A stretch of DNA of 39,377 bases from Pirellulales bacterium (lineage in GTDB: Bacteria > Planctomycetota > Planctomycetia > Pirellulales > Thermoguttaceae): NCBI GenBank assembly GCA_016931075.1, contig JAFGFF010000270.1, positions 1 through 39,377 on the forward strand. The letters are read 5' to 3'. Shown in pieces: positions 3,024 through 39,377 of this stretch. The notes beneath the pieces are model-generated. The model worked only from the letters and a program-made list of their open reading frames with translations. It was not told the DNA's origin and searched no databases. The position numbers were made by a program, and so were the translations under genes. Each line of letters opens with the position of its first letter. The first letter of the stretch is position 1.

Positions 3024-3213
3024 CAGCCTGGGTGCCATGCCCAGCAGCCTGGGTGCCATGCCCAGACGTCCGCCTTGGCGGCGGATGGGCATGTTGGCAA
3101 GGGAGCCCCAATCTCATGCCCATCCGACGCTGAAGCGACGTCTGGGCATGGCGCCAGTGCCACCCGTTGCGGTCTCCACATGCCCACGCAAGCGTGGAGC
3201 ATGGCACCCAGGC
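3024..3213. repeat. Palindromic element cluster, family A
   Basis: It begins directly after the stop codon of the preceding gene with a perfect 21-bp tandem pair (3024-3044 and 3045-3065). The second copy opens a head-to-head inverted pair that closes near 3142-3160, with inner hairpins (CCGCC/GGCGG) in the arm. A further diverged unit lies at 3177-3213. The core is GTGCCATGCCCA and its complement TGGGCATGGCAC. Related pairs occur at 24914-24999, 26474-26637 and 30829-30936. The position suggests it may act as a 3' RNA structure for the preceding gene. Confidence 0.8.
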
Positions 3214-3886: not shown

Positions 3887-4930
3887 ATGATTGTCGTGAT
3901 GAAGCGGGGCGCTACTCCTGAGCAGATTGAACACATGATCCAACGCGTCGAAGCACTGGGGCTGAAGGCCCATCCGATCCAGGGCACCGAGCGAACGGTG
4001 ATTGCCGCGATCGGCGAGAAACGAGACGAACACCGGACCTCGCTCGAGAGCGGCCCGGGCGTCGACGAAGTGGTGCCGATCCTGGCGCCGTACAAAGTGG
4101 CCAGCCGCGAGGTCAAGCCCGAGCCGACGGTGATCCGCGCCGGCAGCCTGGCCGTGGGCAACAGCCACGTGGGCATGATCGCCGGGCCGTGCTCGGTCGA
4201 GAGCCTCGAACAGACGATGGCCACCGCCCGAGCCGTGAAAAAGGCCGGCGCGACGGCCTTGCGCGGCGGGGCCTTCAAACCCCGGACCAGCCCCTACAGC
4301 TTCCAAGGTCTGAAGGAAGAGGGCCTGAAAATCCTCGCCGCCGCCCGAGAGGAAACTGGCTTGGCCGTGGTGACCGAAGTGGTCGCGCCGTCCGACGTCG
4401 AGCTGGTCGCCGACTACGCCGACGTCCTGCAGATCGGCGCGCGGAACATGCAGAACTACCCGCTGCTCGAAGCGGTCGGCGAAGTCGATCGGGCCGTACT
4501 ACTCAAGCGAGGGCCCAGCGCGACAATCGACGAGCTGCTGCTGGCGGCCGAGTACATCCTCAACGCGGGCAATCCGAACGTCATGCTCTGCGAGCGGGGT
4601 ATCCGCACGTTCGAGGCCCACACCCGATTCACGTTGCCCTTGGCCACGGTTCCCTACCTGCACGAGCGGACCCACCTGCCCGTGCTGGTCGACCCGAGCC
4701 ACGGCACAGGCCACACGGCCCTGGTCGCCCCGATGGCCTACGCCGCCATCGCCGCGGGGGCCGACGGCCTGATCGTCGAGGTCCACCCCGACCCCGAGTC
4801 GGCCAAGAGCGACGGCTACCAGTCGCTGACCTTCGACCAGTTCGCCCAGATGATGGCCCAATGCCACCGCATCGCCGCCGCCGTGGGCCGGAAGATCGCC
4901 GCTAACGAGGCAGCGGATATTCAGGCGTAA
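3887..4930 (+). CDS. aroF: 3-deoxy-7-phosphoheptulonate synthase
   Basis: DAHP synthase joins phosphoenolpyruvate and erythrose-4-phosphate in the first step of the shikimate pathway to aromatic amino acids. The 347-residue length and layout fit the short class I-beta (AroA-beta/AroF of Bacillus and Thermotoga) group. Residues 1-75 form the ferredoxin-like regulatory domain ([18 protein letters not shown]), and the TIM barrel follows. Visible motifs are AGPCSVES at 99-106 with metal-ligand Cys102, [11 protein letters not shown] at 131-141, and DPSHGTGH in the C-terminal half. Start ATG 3887 is preceded by TTAGGAAG. The gene stands alone behind a repeat-filled leader and converges on the next gene with a 33-bp gap. 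In homologues the N-terminal domain gives feedback inhibition; this cannot be confirmed from the sequence. Confidence 0.95.
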
Positions 4931-17359: not shown

Positions 17360-20300
17360 TATGACTCGGCACGCAAGGACGAAAGTAGTGGCGCATGCAG
17401 CGCGGCCCGGGCGGCGATCAGCGCGGCAAGCAGGCCGATGATCAGGATGATTCCGAGCGTGGCAACCAGACTGATCCACGGCACGGCGGCCGATCGAGTC
17501 AAGAGATGAGGCAGGACGGCGACCAAGGCGGCCAGGACGCCCACGGCCAGGCCTGACAGCAGTAGCAAACTGTTTTCGGCCAGGACCAACAGGCCGATCG
17601 TCCTCCGGCGGAATCCGGTTGCGCGGAGCAGAGCTAATTCGGAACGGCGTTCGATGACGTTGCGCCACTGGACCACGGCCAGCCCGATCGTGCCGAGCAG
17701 GAGCCCTAGCCCTCCGAAGCTCTGAAACGTCGAGAGATACGTGTTCTGCACGACCAGGAACCCGGCCAATCGCTCGCCGCTCGGTTCGGCCGCCAGGCCA
17801 TAATCCCCCAACGTCCGTTCCAGAGCCGCCCGGACTGCTTCGACTTTCTCTGGTGGTGCGGCAATCAGGAAGAACCGATAGCCGGCCACTTCGGGGAATT
17901 GTTGCAGAAGGACATCTTCGTTCATCAACAAGCAGCCCTGCAACAGTCCGCCGTCCAGCAGCCCGACGACCTCCAGTTCCACCGGCTCACCATCGTCGTC
18001 CGGCACGGTGAACCGCTGGCCGATGCCTTGATACAAGTGCATTGCGTACATGGCCGTGTTCTTTTCGAGAACGACGGGGATTGGATACTTGTCATTTTCC
18101 ATTAGGGTGGCACGGGCATCTTGCCCGTGTTCGGAGGCGCACTGGCGAGACGCCAGTGCCACCCAGGGATTGTGTGGTTGTTCGGTTGCCGCCCAGGCGA
18201 AACCGCCGCGCTGGAGGAGTGAGCGGGGCACGCCCAGGATGCGTGGGCGTCGGGCCTGGTAGAGGTTCAGGCAGCTCGCGTCGTCGCCCGACTTGACGCG
18301 GAAGGAGACGATCGTGCAGTCGTCCAGCAGTTGTGAATCGGCCTCGGTGAAACCCAGTTCGGCCCGGCCCTCGGGCGTGCCTGGGTCGTGATAGACAGGC
18401 TGATCGGTCTGGGCCACCAGCGCAAACCCGCCGTCGCCGCTGTTCAGGCGAGGCGTTCGCCCGATCGGGTTTTGATAGAACGCACTGATCGCCACGATCA
18501 AAAAGCAGGCCGCCGCGACCAGCCCCACGGCCAGAAGACTCCTGCCCGGCCGTCGGGCGGCATTCCGGGCTGCCAGTCGCATGATATTGCCTCGCCCCGG
18601 CGCGACGGCCGACCAGTGGCGAGTGCTTGCCAGTGCGGTGCGGACAAGTCCTAGCAGTCCCAACAATACTAACGCTCCAGCGCCAAAAAAGGCCCCCGCT
18701 TGATACGCCCCACCGGCCATGGCGGCCCACGTTACAACGCCGCCGGCGAGCAGGAGAACGATCGGAATGATCAGCGTGCGCCAACCTCCCCTCTCCCTTT
18801 GGGAGAGGAGCCGGGGGTGAGGGTGCGTGGCGTGCCGATCGGCTTCGCTCTTCTTCATCCCGCCCTCACCCGGCGGCTGCGCCGCCACCCTCTCCCAAAG
18901 GGAGAGGGTTAGATCGCCTTCCATCAACCGCCGGGGCGATGATCGTCCAAGACGCCGGACGCCCAGCAGGATCACCACCAGGGCGATGACCAGGCCGGCG
19001 GCCAGCCCGATCAACAGGCTTGTCGCGCCGACGTGCAGGTGCAAGAAGGGCGTTCCCACGGCGGCCACCCACCAGGTCCGCAGGCCCCAGAGCATCAACG
19101 CGGCATAACCCACGCCCAGCAGCGTGCCGATCAGCCCTCCGACCGAGGCCACGACCAGCCCTTCAGCGACCAACATGCCTTGGATCCGCCGCCGCGTGAA
19201 GCCCAGGGCCAAGAGCGTGCCGACTTGCGAGGCGCGGAGTTCGACGCCGAGCCGGAACAGCATCCCCAGGAGCATGACGGCCGCCGCGATCAGAAAGAAG
19301 CTGAACGAGAGGAAGAGCACCCCAAACGGCGTCGTACCGGCCGATGCCGCTAGCCCTTGAGCTTTAACCGGCTGAAAGGCCAGGCCCATTTGCTGGGGAG
19401 ACAGACGCTGTTCCAACTGCCGTTGTAGTATTTCAAGTTCAGATTGTCCGGTCGCTTTCCCGTTTATCTTCTTCGGCTTGATCCGCAGCGATGTGGTTTG
19501 TCCGAACCGGCTTGCCCAGAGTCTGCGGCCGGTGGCCAGCGAGACGAATGCCTTGGGCGTGGCGCCGTGTTCGTCCCAGTAGGTCTCGTCCTTGGGCCGG
19601 ATCCGTTCGGCGTGGAACTCGAACGGCGGTTCCCACTCGGCCATCGTGAGCCGGTCGGTCACGTCGCGGACCGAGGGCACCAGATCTGGATCGTCGGCCA
19701 TGCCGGCCAGGGGCGTGACGGCTGCCAGACGGAACGTCGTTTTCGAGTATTCGGTCTGTCCAGGTGTGCGAGCACCTTCCGGGTCGAAGTAGGTCACTTC
19801 GATCTGGTCGCCCGGCTTGGCCCCGAGATCCTTGGCCGCCCAGGCGTTCAGGACGATCTGGTCATCGGCCAGAGGGTTGATTGTTTTGCCATGCACATCC
19901 AGCAATGGCCCGAACGGAGGATCGGCCGTGAAGTCGATCGCCGCGACGGTTGAATAGGGCACCGTCTTCTCACCCTGGGCGATTGTGATGGCCAGGTTGA
20001 CCAGGACCGGCTGGACCTCGTAGCCAAGCGCATCCAGCACTCGAAGGAGTTCGGCCTCAACCCCGGGCGAGAAGAGCATCCGCTCGGTCGTCAGATTGAA
20101 GTAGCCCTTGGGTGTTCGCGTCAAACGCAGGCCCAAGTCGTCCAGCGTCGGGTGCAACAAGTCATCCAGCAGATCGGCCGAGTCGGGTGGAACGTCGTCG
20201 ACTCTGGGCGTGCCAACAAGGATTGCATTGACTCGGCCCGGTTGTTCGAGCCGTTGTTGAAGCCATTTCAAGGACACAAACGCATTGCGAGGCAGTTGCT

Positions 20301-24221: not shown

Positions 24222-24596
24222 AAGAAGGGATTGGGGATTAGGGATTAGAGGTTCGGGGCTTGGTTGAGTGGCACTGGCGTCTCGCCAGTGTTTTCACCTC
24301 AACACTGGCGAGACGCCAGTGCCACCCCGCTGGATCGGTTTGTAGAATCTTCAATCGCGTGAGGGCCGCCTCGGCGGGGATCGGGGCGAGCCCTCACGAC
24401 GATAATCTCTTTTCTCACCCAAGGTTACGCTCTCTTACGTAACCGGAAGACTCGCGGGATTGGGCGATTGGCACGCGAGTCGCTCTAGGGTCCAAGGCCG
24501 ACGGGATGTCGGCGACTTTCGCGCGGCGTTCCCGCACGCCGCGCGAGAGTCTCCCCCCTTTCTACTCCCCGAACGGATTCAGGGACCGACCCAGCG
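24222..24596. other. Gap with hairpins upstream of a small membrane protein
   Basis: Besides the family C pair (24268-24325) there is a GACTCGCG...CGCGAGTC inverted repeat at about 24448-24482 and a strong 10-bp hairpin TCGCGCGGCG/CGCCGCGCGA at 24519-24528 and 24537-24546, in the probable 5' leader of the next gene. No reading frame is convincing. Confidence 0.5.
24268..24325. repeat. Palindromic element pair, family C
   Basis: Two 25-bp arms, 24268-24292 and 24301-24325, are perfect inverse complements with an 8-base spacer. Each arm is a hairpin CACTGGCG-TCT-CGCCAGTG. It is the intergenic form of the element found in frame in the permease gene. It lies 46 bases after the TlpA-like stop codon. 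Confidence 0.9.
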
Positions 24597-27642: not shown

Positions 27643-30600
27643 ATGAGACGACTCCAAGGGGCGTCGCCACGCGAGTTCGCGGTGGCGCGAAACGTCGACA
27701 CACCCAGACGGCACGGTCCGATTGACCGCGGCCGTATCGTCATGCTGGTTGCGCTGCTGGCCGCATGGATCGTCGGCGTGTCTGTTGCGGTCCCGGCCAC
27801 GGCGGGCGAGGCCGAGGATCAGTACGCCGTCGCCGCGGGCCACTACGCCCAAAGGGACTGGCGACTGGCCGTCAAGGAGTTCGAGGTCCTCCTCGAAAAG
27901 CACCCGACGCACGCCTCGGTCGAAGCGAGCACTTTTTTCCTGGGCGAGGCCCTGTTGCAGATCGAGCGCTACAGCGCCGCCGCGACGCGATTTGCCGAGT
28001 ATCTTCGCCGGGCGCCCAAGGGTCCGTATGCCAAGACGGCCCAATTCCGGCTGGCCGAGGCAGCCTATCTGGCCGGCCTAGGGAACCAGGCCGAGCGCGA
28101 CCTCGAACAGTTCCTGCAAAAATATCCCGGTGATCCGCTCGGCGCGTTTGCCTTGCCCTACCTGGGCGAGACGCGGCTGTCGTTGGACAAACCGGCCCAG
28201 GCTGAAAAGGCGTTTCGCGAAGCACTCGATCGATTCCCCGAAGGCCGGATGCAGGACGACTGCCGGTTGGGGCTGGCCAAAGCGGCCAAGGCCCAAGGGC
28301 GGAACGAGGAAGCCCGACGGATGCTCTCGGTCCTGATGGTGAAGCAAAATGGCCCCTTGGCCGAAGAGGCCCGATTCCGGCTGGGGATCCTTCAGTGCCA
28401 AGACGGCGACCACAACGAAGCCCTAACAACGCTCGCGCCATTTGAAACGTCTCCCTCGTTATCAAAAAGTCCCTGGCGGGGCCGGGCAGCGCTGGGCCGC
28501 GCGGCCGCGCTGAAGCGGCTCGAACGGTTCGACGAGGCCAAGGCGATTCTCGTACGGCTGACCGGCGACCGGCAGCTTGGCGTCGAAGCCCAATACTGGA
28601 TCGGCCTGATCGAACTGGATCGCCGCCAGTGGAAGGCCGCCGCCGAGACGATGCGGAAGCTTGCCCGGGAGAATCCCCGTCACAAGTTGGCTCCCGCTTT
28701 CCATTTCTACGCGGGCGACGCGTTGATGAGGGCCGACCGGCCCGAAGAGGCGAGCAAGGAGTTCGACGCCGCCCTGACCGGCCCGGGCAAGGACGAAGAC
28801 AACCCGTGGCGCGACGACGCCCTCCGGGGCAAGATCCAGTTGGCTGTCAAGGCGAAAGAGGGAACGACCGTCGACCGTCTGGCGACCGATTTTCTACGCA
28901 AACACGCCGAGAGCCCACTGGCCAACGACGTTCGCCGTTTGTCGGCCCGATCGATGCTGGAACGCCATCAGTACGGCCAGGCAGCCCGTCTGTTGGAGCC
29001 CCTCTGTGCCGGCGACGCCCGAGACGCGCAGTCGCTCGAGGACCGCTACCTCTTGGCGTTGGCCTACGAAGGCTGTCACCGGCCCAAGGATGCGTTGGCC
29101 ATGCTCCGGCCGGTGGTCGAGTCGGCCCAAGGGCAGCTTCAGGCCCAAGCCAGTCTGGCCGAGGCGTCTTTGCTGGCTTCGACCGACCAGTTTGGAGAGG
29201 CGAAGACGCGGCTGGAACAATACCTGGCCACCAAGCCCGAGGGACCCGAGGCAGTCAAGGCCCAGGCTCGGCTGGCGGTCGGTCTGGCGCAGCACGGCCA
29301 GATGGAGCACGCCAAGAAGCTCTACACGACGCTGCTGGCGCATCGGGCCACCGATCCGCTCTTGTTGCCGGCCACCGAGCAGTTGGCCGAAGCGGCCTAC
29401 GACGCGGGCGACTACGCCTGGGCGGCCGAACTGTACGGCTGGCTGATCGAGCAGAACCACGGGTCGAAGAACGCGAGTCTGGTCCGGGCGCTTTCCGGCT
29501 TGGCATGGAGCCAGCTCAAGACGGGCCAGCCGGTCAAGGCCGAGGCAACGTTCGAACGATTGTTGCGCAGCGAACCCGATCCGAAGCTGGCGGCCGAGGC
29601 GGCTTGGGCCCGAGGGCGACTGCTCGAACAGCTCAATCGGCCCGACGGGGCACTGGCGATGTACGACCAGATCCTCCAACGCCACACCAAGAGCGCACAA
29701 CATCCCAAGGCGCTACTGGCCGCCGCGCGGCTGCGCGACCGGCTCCAACGCGACGACGAAGCGGCCAAGCTGTACCGCCAGTTCGCCACCGACTATCCAA
29801 AGAACGACCGTTTGGACGCCGTCCTGTACGAATGGAGTTGGGTGCTGGAAGAAACGGGCAAGACGGACGAGTCGGCCACGCTTCGCGAGCGGCTTGTGCG
29901 CGAGTTCCCCGAGAGTCGCTTTACGGCCGACGCGGCCTATCGCCTGGCCCAACGGGCGGCCGAGACCAAGGACTTTGAAGCAGCCGAAAAATGGCTCGAT
30001 CGGGTCTTGGCCAGCCGGCCGGGCGACGAATTGACCCAACACGCGTTGTGTCTGCAGTGGCAGATCGCCGGGGCGCGGAAGCAGTGGGAAATCGTCCGCC
30101 GCGCGGCCGGGCAACTCGTCCGCGACTATCCCGAGAGCCCCTTGCGGCTGGCGGCCGAGTTCTGGGTGGCCGAGTCGGACTACCGGATCGACCAGTTGGA
30201 ATCGGCCGGCCAGCGGTTCGACGATCTCGACAAGCGCCGCCAGGGCCACAAGGACGCGTGGCTGGCCATCGTGCCGCTTCGCCGTGCCCAGATCCTCGCC
30301 CGAAAGAAACAGTGGAAGGACGCCCTGGCCTTGGTCCGGGCGATCCCGAAGGAATATCCCCAGTTCGAGCAGCAGCACGAGGTCGATTACCTCTTGGGCC
30401 GATGTCTGGCCAGCCAGGCCGATTTCGAGGCCGCCCGCGAGGCCTACCGCCGCGTGATCCGCAGCGAAACGGGGGCGAAAACCGAAACGGCCGCCATGGC
30501 CCAGTGGATGATCGGCGAGACCTATTTCCATCAGAAGGACTACGAAACGGCCGTGCGAGAGTACCTGCGCGTGGAGATGCTCTACGCGTTTCCGCGATGG

Positions 30601-30807
30601 CAGGCCGGCGCGCTGTTGCAGGCGGGCAAGTGCTACGAGCGGTTGGGCCAGTGGGACGCGGCCGCCCAGCTTTACGCCCGCGTGATTAATTCCTATCCCA
30701 CGACCGCCTTCGCCGAGGAAGCCGCCGCCCGGCTCCGCGACGTCACGCCCAAAACTCGAATCCATCAAGCTCGTCAACCAAAGCAGGCTGAAGACGCAAT
30801 CAGATAA
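27643..30807 (+). CDS. Large periplasmic TPR-repeat protein
   Basis: The 1054-residue protein is made almost wholly of tetratricopeptide-like repeats, many in the YbgF/BamD style (HYAQRDWRLAVKEFEVLLEK; FFLGEALLQIERYSAAATRF; AEKAFREALDRFPEGRMQDD). A hydrophobic signal sequence lies at residues 34-55 (MLVALLAAWIVGVSVAVPAT), so the true start may be ATG 27742 instead of 27643; neither has a strong ribosome site. Such proteins act as protein-protein scaffolds, here outside the cytoplasmic membrane. It precedes exbB, exbD and the toroid gene on the same strand, an arrangement I know from other planctomycetes, and may hold a partner for that motor. Confidence 0.88.
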   Translation: MRRLQGASPREFAVARNVDTPRRHGPIDRGRIVMLVALLAAWIVGVSVAVPATAGEAEDQYAVAAGHYAQRDWRLAVKEFEVLLEKHPTHASVEASTFFLGEALLQIERYSAAATRFAEYLRRAPKGPYAKTAQFRLAEAAYLAGLGNQAERDLEQFLQKYPGDPLGAFALPYLGETRLSLDKPAQAEKAFREALDRFPEGRMQDDCRLGLAKAAKAQGRNEEARRMLSVLMVKQNGPLAEEARFRLGILQCQDGDHNEALTTLAPFETSPSLSKSPWRGRAALGRAAALKRLERFDEAKAILVRLTGDRQLGVEAQYWIGLIELDRRQWKAAAETMRKLARENPRHKLAPAFHFYAGDALMRADRPEEASKEFDAALTGPGKDEDNPWRDDALRGKIQLAVKAKEGTTVDRLATDFLRKHAESPLANDVRRLSARSMLERHQYGQAARLLEPLCAGDARDAQSLEDRYLLALAYEGCHRPKDALAMLRPVVESAQGQLQAQASLAEASLLASTDQFGEAKTRLEQYLATKPEGPEAVKAQARLAVGLAQHGQMEHAKKLYTTLLAHRATDPLLLPATEQLAEAAYDAGDYAWAAELYGWLIEQNHGSKNASLVRALSGLAWSQLKTGQPVKAEATFERLLRSEPDPKLAAEAAWARGRLLEQLNRPDGALAMYDQILQRHTKSAQHPKALLAAARLRDRLQRDDEAAKLYRQFATDYPKNDRLDAVLYEWSWVLEETGKTDESATLRERLVREFPESRFTADAAYRLAQRAAETKDFEAAEKWLDRVLASRPGDELTQHALCLQWQIAGARKQWEIVRRAAGQLVRDYPESPLRLAAEFWVAESDYRIDQLESAGQRFDDLDKRRQGHKDAWLAIVPLRRAQILARKKQWKDALALVRAIPKEYPQFEQQHEVDYLLGRCLASQADFEAAREAYRRVIRSETGAKTETAAMAQWMIGETYFHQKDYETAVREYLRVEMLYAFPRWQAGALLQAGKCYERLGQWDAAAQLYARVINSYPTTAFAEEAAARLRDVTPKTRIHQARQPKQAEDAIR

Positions 30808-30828: not shown

Positions 30829-30936
30829 TGGGTGCCATGCCCAGACGCCCGCCTTGGCGGCGGATGGGCATGATTTTGGGACACCCTTGCCAACATGCCC
30901 ATCCGCCGCTGAAGCGACGTCTGGGCATGGCACCCA
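30829..30936. repeat. Palindromic element pair, family A, between TPR and exbB genes
   Basis: Arms 30829-30872 and 30894-30936 are inverse complements at both ends, but their centres differ: one has CCGCC-TT-GGCGG, the other CGCT-TCA-GCG type pairing. Each arm keeps its own hairpin. Its close relative is at 3045-3160. Confidence 0.85.
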
Positions 30937-30988
30937 GTTACTCAACAACCTATTTTCTATCACGGTCCGACCCGTGGAGCGGGATGCC

Positions 30989-31864
30989 ATGAAAAGCGAA
31001 AGACTCTCAACGTGTACTGTCCGTATTGCCTGGATGGTCGCCATCGCGGCCCTGGGGGCCATGTGTCTCACACCGGGCGTCGTTCGTGCCGAAGACGATG
31101 CGTCGGCCAAAGTGGCGATCGACGGCCCCGTGGCCGCGTCGTCGTCCACTCCGTTGGCCGAGAACGCCCCGATCCCGACACGCGATCTCTGGGACATCAT
31201 CCGAAGCGGCGGGCCGTTGATGATCCCGTTGGGCGTCTGCTCGCTGCTGCTGTTGGCGTTCGTCTTCGAACGGATGATCGCGCTGCGTCAAGGGCGGATC
31301 ATCCCGAAGCCGTTCGTCCGCCGGATTATCGAACAGATCCGCGAGGGCGACCTGGACCGCAACCAGGCCCTGGAGCTGTGCGAGCAGAACGGCAGCCCGG
31401 TCTCCGAGGTGTTCGGCGCGGCGGTCCGGCGTTGGGGCCGACCGGCGGTCGAAGTGGAACAAGCCATCATCGACGCGGGCGAACGCGTGACCAACGGACT
31501 GCGGCGCTACCTCCGCGTGATCAACGGCGTGGCCACGATCAGCCCGCTGTTGGGACTGCTCGGCACGGTGGTCGGCATGATCCGGGCGTTCAACGCCATC
31601 GCCACGACCAGCGCCCTGGGCCGGCCCGAGCTTCTGGCCAACGGCATCAGCGAGGCCCTGTTGACCACGGCCGCCGGACTGACCGTGGCCATCCCCGCGC
31701 TGTTCTTCTACATGTTTTTCGTCAGCCGGGTGGACCGGTTGATCATTGATATCGATGCGTTGGGCCAGCAACTCGTCACGATGATCTCGGCCGAGGAGCT
31801 GGACAACCGCAACAAAGTCCCCGCCCCGGCCCACACCCGACGTAATCAAAAAGTCTCCACCTAA
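30989..31864 (+). CDS. exbB: MotA/TolQ/ExbB proton channel family protein
   Basis: The chosen start, ATG 30989, gives 291 residues; a longer frame passes through a repeat. An N-terminal signal-like segment (to about 34, ending GVVRAEDD) is an extra found in some ExbB proteins. The three-helix core follows: about 75-94 (GGPLMIPLGVCSLLLLAFVF), 178-200 (ATISPLLGLLGTVVGMIRAF) and 222-245 (TTAAGLTVAIPALFFYMFF). The GLLGTVVGM and TTAAGL motifs are family hallmarks. With ExbD it forms a proton-driven channel that energises an outer-membrane or envelope partner. It is followed by exbD after 262 bases filled with palindromic repeats. Confidence 0.93.
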   Translation: MKSERLSTCTVRIAWMVAIAALGAMCLTPGVVRAEDDASAKVAIDGPVAASSSTPLAENAPIPTRDLWDIIRSGGPLMIPLGVCSLLLLAFVFERMIALRQGRIIPKPFVRRIIEQIREGDLDRNQALELCEQNGSPVSEVFGAAVRRWGRPAVEVEQAIIDAGERVTNGLRRYLRVINGVATISPLLGLLGTVVGMIRAFNAIATTSALGRPELLANGISEALLTTAAGLTVAIPALFFYMFFVSRVDRLIIDIDALGQQLVTMISAEELDNRNKVPAPAHTRRNQKVST

Positions 31865-31913
31865 CCTAGGATCCGTTAAAGAACAACATACCGAATTGAG
31901 GTCATCGCCGTCA

Positions 31914-32076
31914 CTGTAGGGAACGCCCTCCGTGGCGTTCCGTGAACTGCTGTAGGGAACGCCCTCCGTGGCGTTCCATGAACCGCTGTAGGGAACGCCC
32001 TCCGTGGCGTTCCGTGAACCGCGCGTTTGGCCCATTTCCGCTGCCCACGGAACGCCACAGAGGGCGTTCCCTACAG
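31914..32076. repeat. Tandem and inverted family B elements between exbB and exbD
   Basis: Three direct 28-bp copies lie at 31914-31941, 31950-31977 and 31986-32013, spaced at exactly 36 bp, with an inverted fourth copy at 32049-32076 (one loop base changed). The 8-bp linkers GTGAACTG, ATGAACCG and GTGAACCG are near-identical. Any exbB-exbD message would carry four strong hairpins here. Confidence 0.92.
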
Positions 32077-32126
32077 AACAAAGTCGGTGACTTATTCCTT
32101 GACAGTGTCCTAGCGGAACCACTACC

Positions 32127-32546
<420 letters not shown>

Positions 32547-32549
32547 CCC

Positions 32550-34646
32550 ATGGGCTGGTTCCATCGTCTCGCCGAGTTCCTCGCCAGCGCCCAGTTCTTC
32601 CTGGGTTTGCTCTGGGTGGGGCTCACGATGCTGACCGTCACGCTCTTGATCCTGATGCGAACCCGCTGGGGCCAGTCGCAGCCGCTTCGCAAATGCCTGC
32701 TGCTGTCGATCCTCGCCCACGTGCTGTTGGCCGGCTATGCGACGACGGTGCGGATCGTGGCGGGCGTGCCCGACCGGTCGGGCGAGCCGATGATGCGCGT
32801 CTCGCTGACCGAGACGGGCCCGCTGCCCGACGTGATGGAAGAACAAACCGCCCCCGCGCGAAAGCCGTGGGAGACGCCCGAGGACGAACCGATCGTCCAG
32901 TCCGAGCTGGATGACGCCTCGCGGGTCGAAGCCGACGTCGCCTCGGCCCCCGAGCGTGCGCCGACGGAGGTGAAAACCACGTTGCCGCCCGACATGCCGC
33001 TGCGCGACGTGCCGCTGGCCGACGCGGCCGAGCCCGACGCGGTTGCGCCGAGCGACCTGCCGCGGCGCCGGCAGACCTCGCCGATCAAGTCGGCTGAGCC
33101 GTTAAAAGCCCCGGCGGCGCAGCGTCGCGAGGAGTCGCCGACCGAGGTGCCGGTCGAGTCGCTTCCCGACCTGCGCGACACGAAAACCAAGCCCGAGGAG
33201 CCGACCCGCACGGCCCGGCCCGCCGTCCCGTCCGAACTGCTCAAGCCGGCAGCCGTGCTGCCGCGTCTGAAGCAGCCGGACCACACGGCCGAGTCGGGCG
33301 ATTCGCTGGTAGGGCTGGTCGACTTGCCGTCGCGCACGCCGCGCGGCAAGCCGGTCCCCGCGCCGGTCCCGACGTCGAACCAGGCGGACACCGGTCCGGG
33401 GCCCGACGCGCCCGACGGCTCGTCGCGCCGCCCGTCGCTCGACTCGCTGGCCGGCAAACGCTCGCCCGAGGACAGCCAGTTGGCCATGGTGCCGCTGGTG
33501 CGTGTCGGTCCGCCGCGAGTGGCCATGAACCGGCCCGACCAGATCGAGCACGAGGCGCCGAAGATCTATCAGCTTCGCACGCACCCGCAACGCCGCCAGC
33601 AGGCCGAACGCTACGGGGCCACGCCCGAGTCGGAAGCGGCCGTCCAGGCCGGACTCAAATGGCTCGCACGAAACCAGGAGCCTGACGGAAGCTGGAACCC
33701 TCGCCATCACGAAGGCGGGCGGGAAACGAACGTCGCCGGGCGTGACCGGCTCGGCGCGGGCATCAAGGCCGACTCGGGCATGACCGGCCTGGCGCTGCTG
33801 GCCTTCCTGGCCGCCGGACACACCCATCAGGCCGGACCCTATCAGGCAAACGTCCAGAAGGGGATCGACTATCTGATCAAAGTCCAAAAGCCCGACGGAA
33901 GCCTGGCCGGCGAGGCGACGCCGTTCGCCGTGATGTACTGCCACGCCATGGCCACGTTCGCCCTGAGCGAGGCCTACGCCCTGTCCGGCGATTCGAGACT
34001 CGACCGGCCGGTCCGCCGCGCGGTCGATTTCATCGTCGACGCCCAGGACCCGCGAGGCGGCGGCTGGCGCTACGAGCCGCGCAAACCGGGCGACACGAGC
34101 CAGTTCGGCTGGCAGCTCATGGCGCTCAAAAGCGCGCAGCTCGCCGGCGTCACCGTCCCGGCCGAGACCTGGGACGCCGCGCGGCGCTATTTGAACAGCG
34201 TCTCGTCCGGCCCACACGGCGCGTGGGGCGCCTATCGACCGGGCGACCAGCCCTCGCGACCCATGACGGCCGAAGCGCTCGTCTGCCGCCAGTTCCTCGG
34301 TCTTGCCCCCTACGACCCGGCCGCCACGACCGCGGGCGACCTGCTGTTGGCCGAGCCGCCGGGCGTCGGCGCCGACAATCTCTATTATTGGTACTACGGC
34401 ACCCTCGGCCTGCACCAACTCGGCGGCGCCCACTGGGACCGCTGGAACCGCGCGTTGCAACAAACGCTCCTCGCCCGCCAACACTCCACCGGCCCCGAAG
34501 CCGGCAGTTGGCCCCCCACCACCACCTGGGGCAGCTACGGCGGCCGCGTCTACACCACCGCCCTGTCCACCCTCTGCCTCGAAGTCTACTACCGCTATCT
34601 CCCCCTCTACACCGAAACGGCCCGAAAGCCGACGGTGCTGCGGTAG
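32550..34646 (+). CDS. TonB-like anchor fused to a terpene-cyclase-type alpha/alpha-toroid
   Basis: The 698-residue protein begins with two membrane helices (15-36 and 49-71). The second carries KCLLLSILAHVLLAGYATTV, with the Ser/His pattern common in TonB first helices. Residues ~75-350 are Pro- and Glu-rich like a TonB periplasmic linker. Residues ~357-698 are a squalene-cyclase/prenyltransferase-type toroid: repeated QEPDGSWNP, VQKPDGSLAG and DPRGGGWRYEPRKPGD with QW-like motifs and paired helices. The cyclase DxDD acid was not seen, so it is probably a binding or scaffold domain. It sits directly after exbD, so a role as the moving partner of the motor, replacing TonB, is a reasonable inference. 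Its last 180 bp are duplicated at 36396-36575. Confidence 0.85.
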   Translation: MGWFHRLAEFLASAQFFLGLLWVGLTMLTVTLLILMRTRWGQSQPLRKCLLLSILAHVLLAGYATTVRIVAGVPDRSGEPMMRVSLTETGPLPDVMEEQTAPARKPWETPEDEPIVQSELDDASRVEADVASAPERAPTEVKTTLPPDMPLRDVPLADAAEPDAVAPSDLPRRRQTSPIKSAEPLKAPAAQRREESPTEVPVESLPDLRDTKTKPEEPTRTARPAVPSELLKPAAVLPRLKQPDHTAESGDSLVGLVDLPSRTPRGKPVPAPVPTSNQADTGPGPDAPDGSSRRPSLDSLAGKRSPEDSQLAMVPLVRVGPPRVAMNRPDQIEHEAPKIYQLRTHPQRRQQAERYGATPESEAAVQAGLKWLARNQEPDGSWNPRHHEGGRETNVAGRDRLGAGIKADSGMTGLALLAFLAAGHTHQAGPYQANVQKGIDYLIKVQKPDGSLAGEATPFAVMYCHAMATFALSEAYALSGDSRLDRPVRRAVDFIVDAQDPRGGGWRYEPRKPGDTSQFGWQLMALKSAQLAGVTVPAETWDAARRYLNSVSSGPHGAWGAYRPGDQPSRPMTAEALVCRQFLGLAPYDPAATTAGDLLLAEPPGVGADNLYYWYYGTLGLHQLGGAHWDRWNRALQQTLLARQHSTGPEAGSWPPTTTWGSYGGRVYTTALSTLCLEVYYRYLPLYTETARKPTVLR
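34467..34646. repeat. 180-bp direct repeat, copy 1 (3' end of the toroid gene)
   Basis: It is the last 180 bp of the toroid gene including its TAG. The second copy is 36396-36575, same orientation, with about five base differences (roughly 97% identity by eye). Similarity stops directly after the stop codon in both. Confidence 0.9.
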
Positions 34647-35065
34647 ATTACCTCTTCTTTTTCTTTGTCTGATTCCTTTCTGCATGAACAGCAAGTGGTG
34701 TCCCAGAGAGATCGATAAGTTTCTCATTGATTTTTTCGGCTAATGCCAACAAAAACACAGGACCATTGCTGTTCAGTCGTTGCCCGCCCGTTCGCCAGGA
34801 CATAGGGTGTGTACTCCATGTCATTCTTCTGAACACTGCCAACCGGTATTCTTGTGGAGCACAATGAAATCGGATTCTGGTATGCCTTCCAGGCATCGTT
34901 ACATCCGGATTGGGGAGGCCCGTCTGGGGGTGGTGATTTGTAGGGCCAATAACCGGCAACTTGACGTCAGAAAGATCACGTCATACGTTGAACCACAGTT
35001 GGATCGGGCTCGTTGGTAGAGCTTGACGATCGTTCTCTTGGTCAACGCAATTGGAGGATGGAACA
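34647..35065. other. Gap with a lower-GC, fragmentary sequence
   Basis: Right after the toroid gene the composition drops in GC. Except for the minus-strand remnant above I see no gene. The last bases (35053-35057, GGAGG) are the ribosome site for the PKD/PEP-CTERM gene. Confidence 0.4.
34724..34966 (-). pseudogene. Gene remnant without start codon
   Basis: A minus-strand frame between stops covers 80 codons and reads like a natural protein C-terminus (WPYKSPPPDGPP; GCNDAWKAYQNPISLCSTRI; DMEYTPYVLANGRATTEQQW) with TGA at 34724-34726. It has no start codon before Met50. A frame upstream on the same strand (about 34970-35030, KLYQRARSNCGSTYDVIFLT) may be its earlier part after a frameshift. 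An overlapping 103-codon frame (34648-34959) is also open but has a less natural composition. I recognise no family. Confidence 0.4.
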
Positions 35066-36244
35066 ATGGTGGACATGAAGAAGTACGGGCGGTTTTCCGG
35101 GATTCACAACACCGCTCTGGGCATCGCTGGCGTTCTTGTCGCGTTGGCAACATGGCCGTGTCCAACCGTGCAGGCTGCAGGTGATCATCAATGGAACTAC
35201 GAGGAGAATTATGACGATCGGTTTCACGACAACCAACCATGGCTTCGTCCTTGGGACGGTAGCGACTCGACCGCCGGGAGATGGGTCGGCAATTGGACCT
35301 ATCGCGTACCTTGGCACAACAAAATCGAGGGCGGAAATGCGGACGGCTCCCTGTCTTTTGGCGGCCCTCGAGATAGACAATTCCACGCATGGACCTTCGT
35401 CTACGTAGATTCTCCCACGACGATTTCCATTTCTGGTGGGGGCGACTGTGTCCCGAGGTGGTTTCTCAACTATGCATTCGACTCGCCATATGGATTCCCC
35501 ATCAATGTGACTCTCCAGGAAGGATGGAATCGCATCGACGTTACCGGTTACAATCAGAATGACAGTTGGACATTTAGTATGGGGCCCCTTGCCGGCCAAG
35601 TCGACATCATGGATCACGAAGAAACCACCCCGCCGGATGCCAACTTCTCCTGGAATCCGAACGCTGGTTGGGCTGGAACAACGTTGTTTGACTTTGAGGA
35701 CCAGTCCACGGCTACAGCCGACAAGTGGAGTTGGGATGTCGACGGCGACGACGTCGTCGATTACATGAGCCAAAATGTGACAGGACACACCTATGCCGCC
35801 CCGGACGGGGGAAGTGCAATCTATGACGTCAGCCTAAAGGTCGGCGTCACGGAGTTCGGAAACATTCTTGATGACGAAGAGACGAAAGACGGGATTATTA
35901 CCGTTTATGGAAAGCCCATCGCCGATTTCACCTATGCGCGGAATGACCTCACCGTGGATTTCACGGATATCTCGATCAAGCCGGGGTATGCGGAACTGGG
36001 CGAATACTCTTTTGCCTGGGACATGGACAACGACGGCTTTTTTGATGATGCGTTCGATGCCAATCCACAATGGACGTTTGCGGCCGCTAACACGTATCAG
36101 GTGAGCCTGATGGTAAGCAATGGAGCTGGGTATAGCGTGATGGCACATGATGTGTATGTGCCTGAGCCGTCCCTTGTTGTTCTGCTTATTGGGATGCTTG
36201 GGTTGCCTTTCCTACGGAGACGCCGCTATTTCAGTCGGGGATAG
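35066..36244 (+). CDS. Secreted PKD-like protein with PEP-CTERM sorting tail
   Basis: ATG 35066 is chosen because GGAGG lies eight bases upstream; ATG 35075 is an alternative. The 392-residue protein has a signal peptide (ending near TVQAAG), an N-terminal beta-rich domain (about 40-185) and two PKD-like domains (PDANFSWNPNAGWAGT...WSWDVDGDDVVDY and KPIADFTYARNDLTVDF...FAWDMDNDGFFDD). At the end is VPEPSLVVLLIGMLGLPFLR followed by an RRRR-type tail, a textbook PEP-CTERM signal. Such proteins are anchored then processed by exosortase and are often exported surface or matrix proteins. Its GC and codon use are lower than those of genes to its left, so it may be acquired. No exosortase gene is in the window. 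Confidence 0.88.
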   Translation: MVDMKKYGRFSGIHNTALGIAGVLVALATWPCPTVQAAGDHQWNYEENYDDRFHDNQPWLRPWDGSDSTAGRWVGNWTYRVPWHNKIEGGNADGSLSFGGPRDRQFHAWTFVYVDSPTTISISGGGDCVPRWFLNYAFDSPYGFPINVTLQEGWNRIDVTGYNQNDSWTFSMGPLAGQVDIMDHEETTPPDANFSWNPNAGWAGTTLFDFEDQSTATADKWSWDVDGDDVVDYMSQNVTGHTYAAPDGGSAIYDVSLKVGVTEFGNILDDEETKDGIITVYGKPIADFTYARNDLTVDFTDISIKPGYAELGEYSFAWDMDNDGFFDDAFDANPQWTFAAANTYQVSLMVSNGAGYSVMAHDVYVPEPSLVVLLIGMLGLPFLRRRRYFSRG

Positions 36245-36395
36245 ACCGTGATTTTCCTTCCGGCTTCATCCGAGCGGCCGTGACCGCTCGCCAATCTGAA
36301 GTCATCCCCGCCAGTTCGGAAGATCGAATCGGGAAACGGGTATTTTGGGACCCGCGGGGAGAACAGTGCGCCAGCCCCCGATTTCGCAAGCGATC

Positions 36396-36575
36396 CTCCT
36401 CGCCCGCCAACACTCCACCGGCCCCGAATCCGGCAGTTGGCCTCCCACCACCACCTGGGGCAGCTACGGCGGCCGCGTCTACACCACCGCCCTGTCCACC
36501 CTCTGCCTCGAAGTCTACTACCGCTACCTCCCCCTCTACACCGAAACGGCCAAAAAGCCGACGGTGCTGCGGTAG
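36396..36575 (+). pseudogene. Duplicated 3' fragment of the toroid gene
   Basis: This is copy 2 of the 180-bp direct repeat. It encodes 59 residues of the toroid C-terminus (LLARQHSTGPESGSWPPTTT ... TETAKKPTVLR) and ends at TAG 36573-36575. It has no start or toroid 5' part of its own. The two copies bracket 1.75 kb that includes the PKD/PEP-CTERM gene. It may be a remnant of a second toroid gene or a duplication linked to the arrival of that gene. Confidence 0.85.
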
Positions 36576-36598
36576 CCAAATTCATGTTCGGCAACCCC

Positions 36599-36681
36599 GT
36601 AGACGCGGCGTCCCGCCGCGTTCTTTGAGAGTTCGGCGGACCATATTGGTGCTTCCGAACGCGGCGAGACGCCGCGTCTAC
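36599..36681. repeat. Palindromic element pair, family E
   Basis: Arms 36599-36623 and 36657-36681 (25 bp each) are inverse complements with one mismatch and a 33-base spacer. It follows the duplicated toroid fragment by 23 bases. Confidence 0.85.
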
Positions 36682-36737
36682 GATTCTCGCTCATGCCGCC
36701 AGTCTCTTTCAGTTCGTCAAGAATGGCCGAGTGTGTA

Positions 36738-36826
36738 CGTGCCACCGGCTCTGCCAGTGCCTATTGGAGGGCCACGCTCCGTCGTGGCCGTTCCTGGGCG
36801 CGTGCCACTGGCTCTGCCAGTGCCCA
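36738..36826. repeat. Direct pair of GTGCCACTGGCTCTGCCAGT elements
   Basis: Two copies in the same direction (36738-36759 and 36801-36822, the first with CCACCGG) flank a GCCACG...CGTGGC hairpin (36770-36787). The unit resembles family C with a TCT-type centre. Confidence 0.7.
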
Positions 36827-36869
36827 TCGAAGGATTACCATCCAATAGGGCCGTTTACGGTCCTTCCCA

Positions 36870-37107
36870 CCGCAGGCGGTATTAGCCCCGGCGTTCACGC
36901 CGGGGGAGAAGGGCCGAGTTGCATCGTCTTCTTTAGCCCCGTTCACGGGGCTTGATTTCGTGATTTCTTCAAAACGGCTGAAGCCGGACGAAACGTAAAG
37001 GCCCATGAATGGGCCTCCGCAAAACGAAACAGATACCACCCGCTCACCCCGGCGTAAACGCCGGGGCTAACACGCCTTAGGCGAAACGCCCGTGAACGGG
37101 CGTCCGG
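36870..37107. repeat. Battery of short hairpins, family F
   Basis: At least seven separate perfect hairpins follow one another, including AGCCCCGGCGTTCACGCCGG (36884), AGCCCCGTTCACGGGGCT (36934), GGCCCATGAATGGGCC (37000), CCCCGGCGTAAACGCCGGGG (37047), CGCCTTAGGCG (37073) and ACGCCCGTGAACGGGCGT (37086). Stems vary but the loops are similar (TTCA, TGAA, TAAA). There is no gene here. Confidence 0.8.
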
Positions 37108-37157: not shown

Positions 37158-37328
37158 ATGAGGGCGTGTTATGGTCAACACCAGATACAAGAGAGGCTGA
37201 TCGATTTTGAGCAAACACTTTTGTCGTTAGCACGACACAGATTGCCTACCGAACGGTGTGGTGCGAGTGGCAAACGGAATCATCATACTATGTCAAAAAA
37301 CCTCCTGGGCCTGACGCCCCCCAGATAG
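37158..37328 (+). pseudogene. Reading-frame remnant interrupted by a family G element
   Basis: From ATG 37158 the frame reads MRACYGQHQIQERLIDFEQT, then LLSLARHRLPTERCGASGKR, and runs into the family G repeat, where it ends at TAG 37326. Up to the repeat the composition is that of a normal helical protein. No ribosome site was seen. Family unknown. Confidence 0.4.
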
Positions 37329-37366
37329 CCGAGCTGTTGGGGCTACCCACTATCGGGGCTACCCGT
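37299..37366. repeat. Family G element, copy 1
   Basis: A 68-bp unit AACCTCCTGGGCCTGACG... continues with GATAGCCGAGCT and two GGGGCTACCC motifs. Copy 2 is at 38574-38641 with few changes. It lies exactly between two reading-frame fragments. Confidence 0.85.
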
Positions 37367-37368
37367 GA

Positions 37369-37479
37369 GTGACGCAGGATGATATCACCACTGCATTGTT
37401 CGACTTCTACGAGGCCCGTTATCCATACATGGCTGATGATGCAATTCTCGAAATCCTGCGACAGGGACTTCAAACATGA
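37369..37479 (+). CDS. 36-residue reading frame overlapping the next start
   Basis: It begins at GTG 37369, three bases after the family G repeat, and ends at TGA 37477-37479, overlapping the ATG of the next gene (ATGA). The peptide (VTQDDITTALFDFYEARYPY ... EILRQGLQT) is protein-like and ends in a helix. It may be a true small gene coupled to its neighbour or the tail of a gene cut by the repeat. No ribosome site was seen. Confidence 0.4.
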   Translation: MTQDDITTALFDFYEARYPYMADDAILEILRQGLQT

Positions 37480-38252
37480 AAATTCGAGAAGCGATTCGCA
37501 TTGAAGGAACACCATTTCCCAAGCCGTTGCCAGTGCCCTTGGACTTGATCCAACGTACGTTTTCCGAGCATGGTTATTTCTTTAAGGATATGGGAAACAA
37601 TAGGACTACCATGCTGAATGACCTGTACGTTGCTGAACGGCTGGGTCAGATTCAGCAAATAATCGAGACAGAGGGCTGGGACGTGAAAGTTACTCGGTCA
37701 GTATGGCCTGAGTATGACGACAAGGATTACAGCCTAGCCCCTCTCTGGGTTCTCAACTTCCCTGATCTCTGGGTCGATGAGATTGACTTCTCTTTCATAT
37801 GTGACGAATGTGGGCGAAAACAAATTGAGGTGGACACTAGCATCCAGGTGTCGAAAGTGAAGTCGAAAAGGCCGTTTCATAGTATTAACGGCCAATTTAA
37901 AATTGTGTCCGCCGAGGTCAAGTCGGCCATTGTTGGCTCACTTGCGGGAGCGTGTTTTCATCAGTTTGATGAGCAGGGCAGGTACTTCTACTTGGGATCA
38001 GAGTGCGACTTGGGTTCCTTGGTCATCAAGAATGATGAAGTACTCGACTACACGGGAGAATGCTCTCTTTGCAGGCTTCCCAAATTCACGACATTCTTCG
38101 GACCGCTTCGATTTGTGAAATCGCTCTGGTCTGGTGAAGATATCGTCCGTGAGTCATTTAACGATGGGTGTCTGTTCACTCCGAAAGCATTTGACTTGCT
38201 ACGAACATTCGATCGAAGCCTTAACCGAGATGGAATTGCCCTTTGGGGATGA
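37476..38252 (+). CDS. 258-residue protein with two CXXC motifs, unknown function
   Basis: The protein has C109-D-E-C112-G and C196-S-L-C199, which could bind one zinc ion together. The segment KIVSAEVKSAIVGSLAGACF and the stand-alone, single-domain form recall immunity proteins of polymorphic toxin systems, including the double-CXXCG group of Myxococcus and Gemmata, but the spacing of the motifs does not match that family well, so I leave the name open. The ATG overlaps the stop of the 36-residue frame, which fits a coupled two-gene unit. Codon use is AT-richer than in the left part of the window, a sign of acquisition. Confidence 0.65.
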   Translation: MKIREAIRIEGTPFPKPLPVPLDLIQRTFSEHGYFFKDMGNNRTTMLNDLYVAERLGQIQQIIETEGWDVKVTRSVWPEYDDKDYSLAPLWVLNFPDLWVDEIDFSFICDECGRKQIEVDTSIQVSKVKSKRPFHSINGQFKIVSAEVKSAIVGSLAGACFHQFDEQGRYFYLGSECDLGSLVIKNDEVLDYTGECSLCRLPKFTTFFGPLRFVKSLWSGEDIVRESFNDGCLFTPKAFDLLRTFDRSLNRDGIALWG

Positions 38253-38528: not shown

Positions 38529-38573
38529 TCAGTGTGGCGTAATCGGCAATAAGAACAATTCTGTTTATCCCGA

Positions 38574-38641
38574 AACCTCCTGGGCCTGACGGCCCCCCGA
38601 TAGCCGAGCTATCGGGGCTACCCGCTATCGGGGCTACCCGC
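38574..38641. repeat. Family G element, copy 2
   Basis: It is closely similar to 37299-37366 in the same direction. It contains AGCCGAGCTATCGGGGCTAC with the inner palindrome CCCCGATAGC...GCTATCGGGG. It lies 64 bases before the next gene. Confidence 0.85.
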
Positions 38642-39248: not shown

Positions 39249-39377
39249 TCACAGCCCCGGCTTGCCCAGCCGACCGTCGGCCGACTCGGGCGGCCCCTCG
39301 GGCGTGAGGTCGATGTCCAGGCCGAGGACGCGGCCGGGCGAGACGGGAGTTGCCAGGGCGAGAATGAGACGGCCCGA
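39249..39377 (-). CDS. C-terminal part of a protein cut by the right edge
   Basis: On the minus strand a frame open from the edge ends at TGA 39249-39251. It gives 42 residues (GRLILALATPVSPGRVLGLD, then IDLTPEGPPESADGRLGKPG). Codons are GC-rich like those of the left part of the window, so the accessory region may end here. No family can be assigned. Confidence 0.55.
   Translation of the reverse strand, partial: SGRLILALATPVSPGRVLGLDIDLTPEGPPESADGRLGKPGL

Follow-up and report, generated by a model that had tools for sequence, protein, structure and literature searches.

The window analysed here is an entire contig (C421; JAFGFF010000270.1) of 39,377 bp, ending at 39377, from the draft assembly of a Pirellulales bacterium of the family Thermoguttaceae (GCA_016931075.1; 6.06 Mb in 491 contigs). 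Within it the last 180 bp of a toroid gene (i.e. a gene with a squalene-cyclase-like C-terminal domain) occur twice, and the two copies bracket a gene for a PKD/PEP-CTERM protein. With a probability of roughly one half, this duplication is an additive recombination scar, in which DNA from a relative would have entered the chromosome as a circle through a single crossover. The parts concerned are the following:

32550-34646, plus strand: intact toroid gene, 698 aa, with a squalene-cyclase-like C-terminal domain (PF13243, E=1.2e-9)
34467-34646, plus strand: repeat copy 1, the last 59 codons and the TAG of the toroid gene (sequence comparison)
34647-36395, no strand: inter-copy segment, 1749 bp, 53.1% GC (composition, DNA searches)
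35066-36244, plus strand: complete orphan PKD/PEP-CTERM gene, 392 aa (weak domain matches, reading by eye)
36366-36575, plus strand: possible 69-codon frame with a GTG start, which traverses copy 2 in phase with the toroid gene, probably non-functional (sequence reading only)
36396-36575, plus strand: repeat copy 2, a detached 3' end of the toroid gene, taken to be the original one (sequence comparison, flank repeats)
36576-37099, no strand: right flank, a mosaic of dispersed repeats of this genome (genome repeat matches)

The two copies align without gaps and are identical at 175 of 180 bases (97.2%), each being closed by the same TAG (34644-34646 in copy 1, 36573-36575 in copy 2), which bears out the sequence-only reading that they are about 97% identical, equal in length and end at the same stop codon. 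The identity breaks off abruptly on both sides (...CAAACG/CTCCTC versus ...GCGATC/CTCCTC on the left, CGGTAG/ATTACC versus CGGTAG/CCAAAT on the right, the slash marking the border), the flanks of the two copies being unrelated on the left as well as on the right, and the match lies far above chance level. The five base differences (G/T, C/T, T/C and the pair CG/AA) fall in four codons, giving one Ala/Ser and one Arg/Lys exchange (the latter through two bases) and two silent changes, and they are found on both sides of the longest exact stretch common to the copies, which measures 83 bp. In the whole assembly of this genome the 180-bp sequence is present at these two sites only; no third copy was found there, the three other matches being only 71-73 nt long and 74-77% identical.

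Copy 1 is the 3' end of an intact gene of 698 aa, the last of an operon of the order TPR-ExbB-ExbD-toroid, to which relatives align at 40-54% identity over nearly the full length and up to its end. Among the 60 genomes listed, a selection that favoured the genus (although the genome studied here is the only one of its genus among them), 59 have a toroid match, the own genome included. ExbD adjoins the toroid gene in 30 of the 32 relative loci and ExbB in 29, the exceptions being L028, which begins inside the toroid gene, L064, which begins at ExbD, and L038, which is without both; a TPR match is present in 19 of the 32, several of which are cut by a contig end. The three preceding genes of the operon in the window are:

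27643-30807, plus strand: TPR protein gene, first of the conserved operon (Pfam TPR families)
30854-31864, plus strand: ExbB/TolQ-type gene (PF01618, E=1.3e-27)
32127-32546, plus strand: ExbD/TolR-type gene (PF02472, E=1.8e-28)

The stretch 30854-34646 thus holds a TonB-like trio of ExbB, ExbD and toroid protein, with the toroid in place of the TonB end, an arrangement found order-wide; read by eye, the toroid protein has N-terminal membrane segments and a proline-rich stretch.

These loci also bear on one of the two explanations proposed by the sequence-only reading, namely a deletion in a tandem gene pair, in which two toroid genes would once have flanked the PKD gene and the second would have been reduced to its last 180 bp. 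Both copies reach the stop codon and stay open, as such a decayed pair would. An adjacent second toroid gene is, however, found in none of the 32 relative loci (31 of them distinct), and neither is the PKD gene (tblastn, E<=1e-4); this makes a decayed tandem pair very improbable, and the proposal of a deletion finds little support. The nearest thing to a second gene is a distant paralogue in L079 (30% identity), which lies about 5 kb downstream. Moreover, 97% nucleotide identity speaks for a recent event, yet nothing more of a second gene is left. As to the reach of this comparison, the downstream-length and tatA counts leave out L027, whose sequence is identical to that of L065 (so that 31 of the 32 loci remain), at least 3 kb of downstream sequence is available in 25 of the 31 distinct loci, and the loci are not all independent, L031/L032 and L035-L037 being about 75-83% alike in DNA.

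The 1749 bp between copy 1 and copy 2 carry one complete gene. Read by eye, the PKD gene has a GGAGG ribosome-binding site, a signal peptide and a VPEP C-terminus; its domain matches are weak (PKD_4 at E=8.8e-5, below the cut-off of the Pfam scan, and PEP-CTERM TIGR02595 at 15.1 bits against a cut-off of 16). In its signal peptide and VPEP C-terminal signal the gene resembles those of PEP-CTERM surface proteins (PMC1569441). As far as the searches reach, the gene is an orphan: its protein has one partial relative (40% identity over 100 residues) among 295 other genomes of the order at E<=1e-5, and the matches within this genome are limited to short C-terminal ones and a few further weak ones. 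At the DNA level no match to the inter-copy segment was found in 118 other genomes of the family, the first 428 bp past copy 1 match nowhere else in this genome, and neither the gene nor the insert matches plasmid or phage DNA, with no confirmed protein relative in viral contigs. PEP-CTERM proteins as such are not scarce in this genome, with 150 matches (the number scored of 286 candidates), some of which may be false because the model is short, a control having given matches in 7 of 14 well-known genomes with 2 over the cut-off. Among 96 PEP-CTERM-like ORFs sampled from it, picked approximately by a regular expression, the PKD gene has the lowest GC content, while 4 of the 96 entries are lower in third-position GC.

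Little else was found between the copies. Of 13 inverted-repeat pairs in 34400-36650, none has arms at both borders of the insert, and a scan for promoters and terminators returned 0 and 3, compared to 1.7 and 3.2 expected. A minus-strand ORF at 34648-34959, whose stop codon starts two bases past the toroid stop, was considered as a gene and rejected: it has no Pfam match up to E=5, and its three weak matches in 59 other genomes (E 0.003-0.01, two with internal stops) were taken as chance.

Which of the two copies is the older end can be judged from the DNA that follows them. The right flank (36576-37099) consists of at least three dispersed repeat families side by side, and 36576-37000 matches 77 places in the genome, of which 4 are on this contig (the query being counted in both numbers). 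Only 22 bp past the stop codon of copy 2 lies a palindromic element (arms 36598-36623 and 36657-36682), of which there are 93 in 862,296 bp of this genome, a sample that includes the window and was chosen largely for PEP-CTERM genes. These elements favour gene ends: 37 of 498 mechanically called ORF ends have one within 50 bp, which is about 11 times the chance expectation of about 3 (93 x 60 / 862,296 x 498). No such element was found between copy 1 and copy 2. Since copy 2 is flanked by repeats of the native type and copy 1 is not, it appears that copy 2 and its flank represent the native gene end and that copy 1 and the insert were added; this is an argument of likelihood and no proof. Only one of the differences can be polarised, copy 1 keeping the Ala that is found in 23 of the 28 relatives with a residue at that position (L027 having been dropped and the three gapped rows L035-L037 left out), while copy 2 has Ser.

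Following these results, we infer a donor, a circle, a crossover and a direction of the event, by a mechanism that would run as follows. Originally, the toroid gene would have ended at the present copy 2 and been bordered there by today's right flank. A closely related donor would have supplied a short fragment, putatively taken up, with the last 180 bp of the donor's toroid gene and, directly after it, the PKD/PEP-CTERM region. Joining of the fragment ends would have given a circle of about 1.93 kb, the joint of which now lies at 36395/36396, and this circle would have become part of the chromosome through a single homologous crossover within the 180 bp. As a result, the toroid gene would have received a hybrid new 3' end (copy 1) and the PKD gene would have been gained, while the old end was displaced downstream as a remnant (copy 2); the five differences would then be those between donor and recipient, or later decay. 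The repeat and the insert are both accounted for by this one event: the insert is flanked by direct copies of a homologous stretch, as an additive recombination product requires, and there is one junction without homology (36395/36396), at which unrelated DNA is joined to the toroid end. Donor and recipient would have been alike in their coding DNA and already different past the stop codon. The DNA past the toroid stop varies among the relatives, and a faster turnover of intergenic than of coding DNA would plausibly account for an identity that ends at the stop codon.

A close precedent comes from Escherichia coli, where incoming linearised plasmid DNA gave 56 of 60 clones that were PCR-positive for a duplication instead of the expected deletion, with a duplicated stretch of 109-950 bp in 14 sequenced clones, which was ascribed to a single crossing-over with a circle lacking part of the homologous fragment (PMC3240628). 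There as here, a direct duplication of the homologous locus brackets the insert, and the 180 bp of the present case fall within that range, although an engineered plasmid and selection were involved there, compared to a natural event in a draft planctomycete genome here. The other 4 of the 60 clones arose by homology-facilitated illegitimate recombination and showed deletions (PMC3240628). The same process has been proposed for Vibrio T6SS arrays, with their displaced orphan genes, and for Rhs loci (PMC5361080); as in the window, the incoming module is anchored by homology to a conserved gene and older 3' material is displaced downstream, but in Vibrio the effector part is exchanged, leaving immunity genes stranded, whereas here both copies have the same 3' end. 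Because its four events in E. coli gave deletions and not duplications (PMC3240628), illegitimate recombination fits the window less well than a circle does. Merodiploids formed during transformation are a further related case (PMC3784515).

If this scar is what it seems, it would be a base-level natural record of a foreign surface-protein gene being added behind a conserved operon without harm, by a route otherwise known mainly from laboratory crosses. It would also hint that PEP-CTERM-rich planctomycetes can gain such genes by ordinary recombination of short DNA. General principles would be unchanged, the scar being ordinary in kind and not a new type of mobile element.

Several observations weigh against this reading, and two of them lend weight to other explanations. 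The first is base composition. The sequence-only reading had noted that the DNA between the copies differs in composition, and the insert is indeed far from the toroid gene (53.1% versus 70.6% GC), but this is not specific, since the right flank up to the contig end is at 54.2%; copy 2 is at 67.2%, and the mean of a genome sample (485 windows of 1749 bp, 274 kb) is 61.2%. In trinucleotide distance, too, the insert is close to the right flank (0.16), while insert and right flank lie at 0.43 and 0.39, respectively, from the operon. The composition shift therefore coincides with the toroid stop, rather than with the two borders of the repeat, and composition cannot mark out the insert. Copy 2 may thus be seen as a GC-rich block set into low-GC DNA that continues on either side, and this is the chief argument for a copy templated in situ. 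In that case toroid and PKD gene would already have been neighbours, and template switching in the course of replication or repair would have placed a copy of the 180-bp toroid end 1.75 kb further downstream, so that copy 2 would be the new one. No donor is needed, and the rarer Ser sits in copy 2. However, two coincidences would be required, a landing place 22 bp ahead of a palindromic element of the gene-end type and a halt at the stop codon, which makes a templated copy rather unlikely.

The second concerns the tatA genes. In 16 of the 31 relatives (including L075, L069 and L078) two tatA-like genes follow within about 1.1 kb of the toroid gene, 15 being without them, and in the window the pair is missing on both sides, i.e. 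also from 36576 onwards; TatA has no match in the own assembly at all, though TatC does. Three explanations are conceivable: tatA is located in an unassembled part (possibly beyond the end of this contig), the region has undergone rearrangement, or the contig is a chimera. Given the absence on both sides, the region was probably rearranged more than once, which does not sit well with a simple single-event history. The absence is also what an artefact of assembly or strain mixing could give, with a contig that joins pieces not adjacent in the cell. The assembly is a draft of 491 contigs, and the exact 83-bp stretch would be enough to tangle a short-read assembly graph. Against such an artefact stand the five differences on both sides of that stretch, the copy borders, which are all unlike, and the right flank, which holds the dispersed repeats of this very genome; on balance it is unlikely.

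A third point is that no genome was found with the toroid gene followed by this PKD gene, neither by DNA among the 118 of the family nor among the 295 of the order, with their one partial protein match. Finally, the exact boundary at the stop codon, the strongest hint of a process that "knows" the gene, is explained only loosely by the turnover of intergenic DNA.

Site-specific integration is one form of the other explanation in the sequence-only reading, an insertion by which the target gene received a rebuilt 3' end. An integrative element, or a non-autonomous relative of one, would have used the toroid 3' end as its attachment site and restored the gene, as is the case with islands at gene ends; the identity that ends at the stop codon, the intact gene and the displaced old end all fit. 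The 698-aa ORF is intact and aligned with relatives to its end; that this end is the rebuilt one, we infer. In SGI1-type integrative elements, insertion likewise takes place at gene ends (the 3' end of trmE and yicC, the 5' end of dusA), with the reading frame restored at dusA, but those elements have an integrase and attachment sites (PMC8409611). Here neither the 1.75 kb nor the other ORFs scanned on the contig (a choice of about 25 longer or relevant ones rather than every reading frame) gave a match to a recombinase, be it integrase or transposase, although an enzyme acting in trans could still have served. Furthermore, there is no third, att-like copy in the assembly, the searches of plasmids, phages and viral contigs gave nothing to set beside it, and a second example was not found in the 862 kb of own genome with its 96 PEP-CTERM-like ORFs, where repeats at the stretch ends would be missed. 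An insertion that rebuilt the gene end is thus the better supported of the two proposals, given the native-looking flank of copy 2 and an insert without DNA match in the family, while an integrative element as its agent is very unlikely. It would be a long shot that the 1.93-kb unit is a small non-autonomous element of this kind, with the toroid 3' end as attachment site, the gene restored, a PEP-CTERM gene as cargo and the recombinase encoded elsewhere; if true, it would give planctomycetes a cassette route for swapping surface proteins. General recombination is enough to explain the locus, with no need to invoke an integrative element.

Outwardly, diversity-generating retroelements look similar, with a short repeat of the 3' end of a gene in its vicinity; the 180-bp copies would then be template and variable repeat. 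At most two of the five differences fall at template adenines, on either strand and with either copy as template, and no reverse transcriptase was found among the ORFs scanned on the contig, which ends at 39377. The chance that such an element is present is next to negligible.

Whether the additive scar recurs can be judged from a scan of 61 stretches of the own genome (the 862,296 bp mentioned above), each searched internally for repeats in direct or inverted orientation with a minimum of 60 bp and 80%; repeats crossing the ends of the sampled stretches would escape it. It gave 28 pairs, 9 of which have an edge within 15 bp of the stop of an ORF of at least 100 codons: the pair described here (offset 0), one in L150, four in L152, two in L153 and one inverted pair in the window (18105-18165 and 24265-24327). 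By position, the L150 pair represents the tails of two PEP-CTERM ORFs, and those of L152 and L153 (one pair of each inspected) are palindromic elements in both orientations. Only one of the nine, the pair described here, represents the end of a gene that recurs as a direct copy next to a different gene. From the remaining pairs, those of L107, the window pair 3050/30829 and L180 were inspected. In a further scan, covering 274,027 bp of this genome plus 357,392 bp from relatives (L027 included), repeats that start shortly past the toroid stop turned up in two relative loci, a palindromic element in L075 and, in L066, a repeat whose second copy lies 6.4 kb further on; neither of them takes in the end of the gene.

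Beyond the right flank, a 68-bp repeat (93%; 37298-37365 and 38573-38640) brackets another low-GC gene (37476-38252, 47.5% GC), which has no Pfam match over the cut-off, and this repeat resembles one in L107. Between ExbB and ExbD, 31914-32076 contains three tandem 36-bp copies with an inverted partner, and its palindrome (CTGTAGGGAACGCC...) recurs in L153 (1308-1426 and 4517-4627) after an ORF end. A palindromic intergenic repeat family (GGTGCCATGCCCAGACG...CGTCTGGGCATGGCACCC) has several copies in the genome, at 3050-3156 and 30829-30937 in the window and at 3903-4011 and 5355-5463 in L180.

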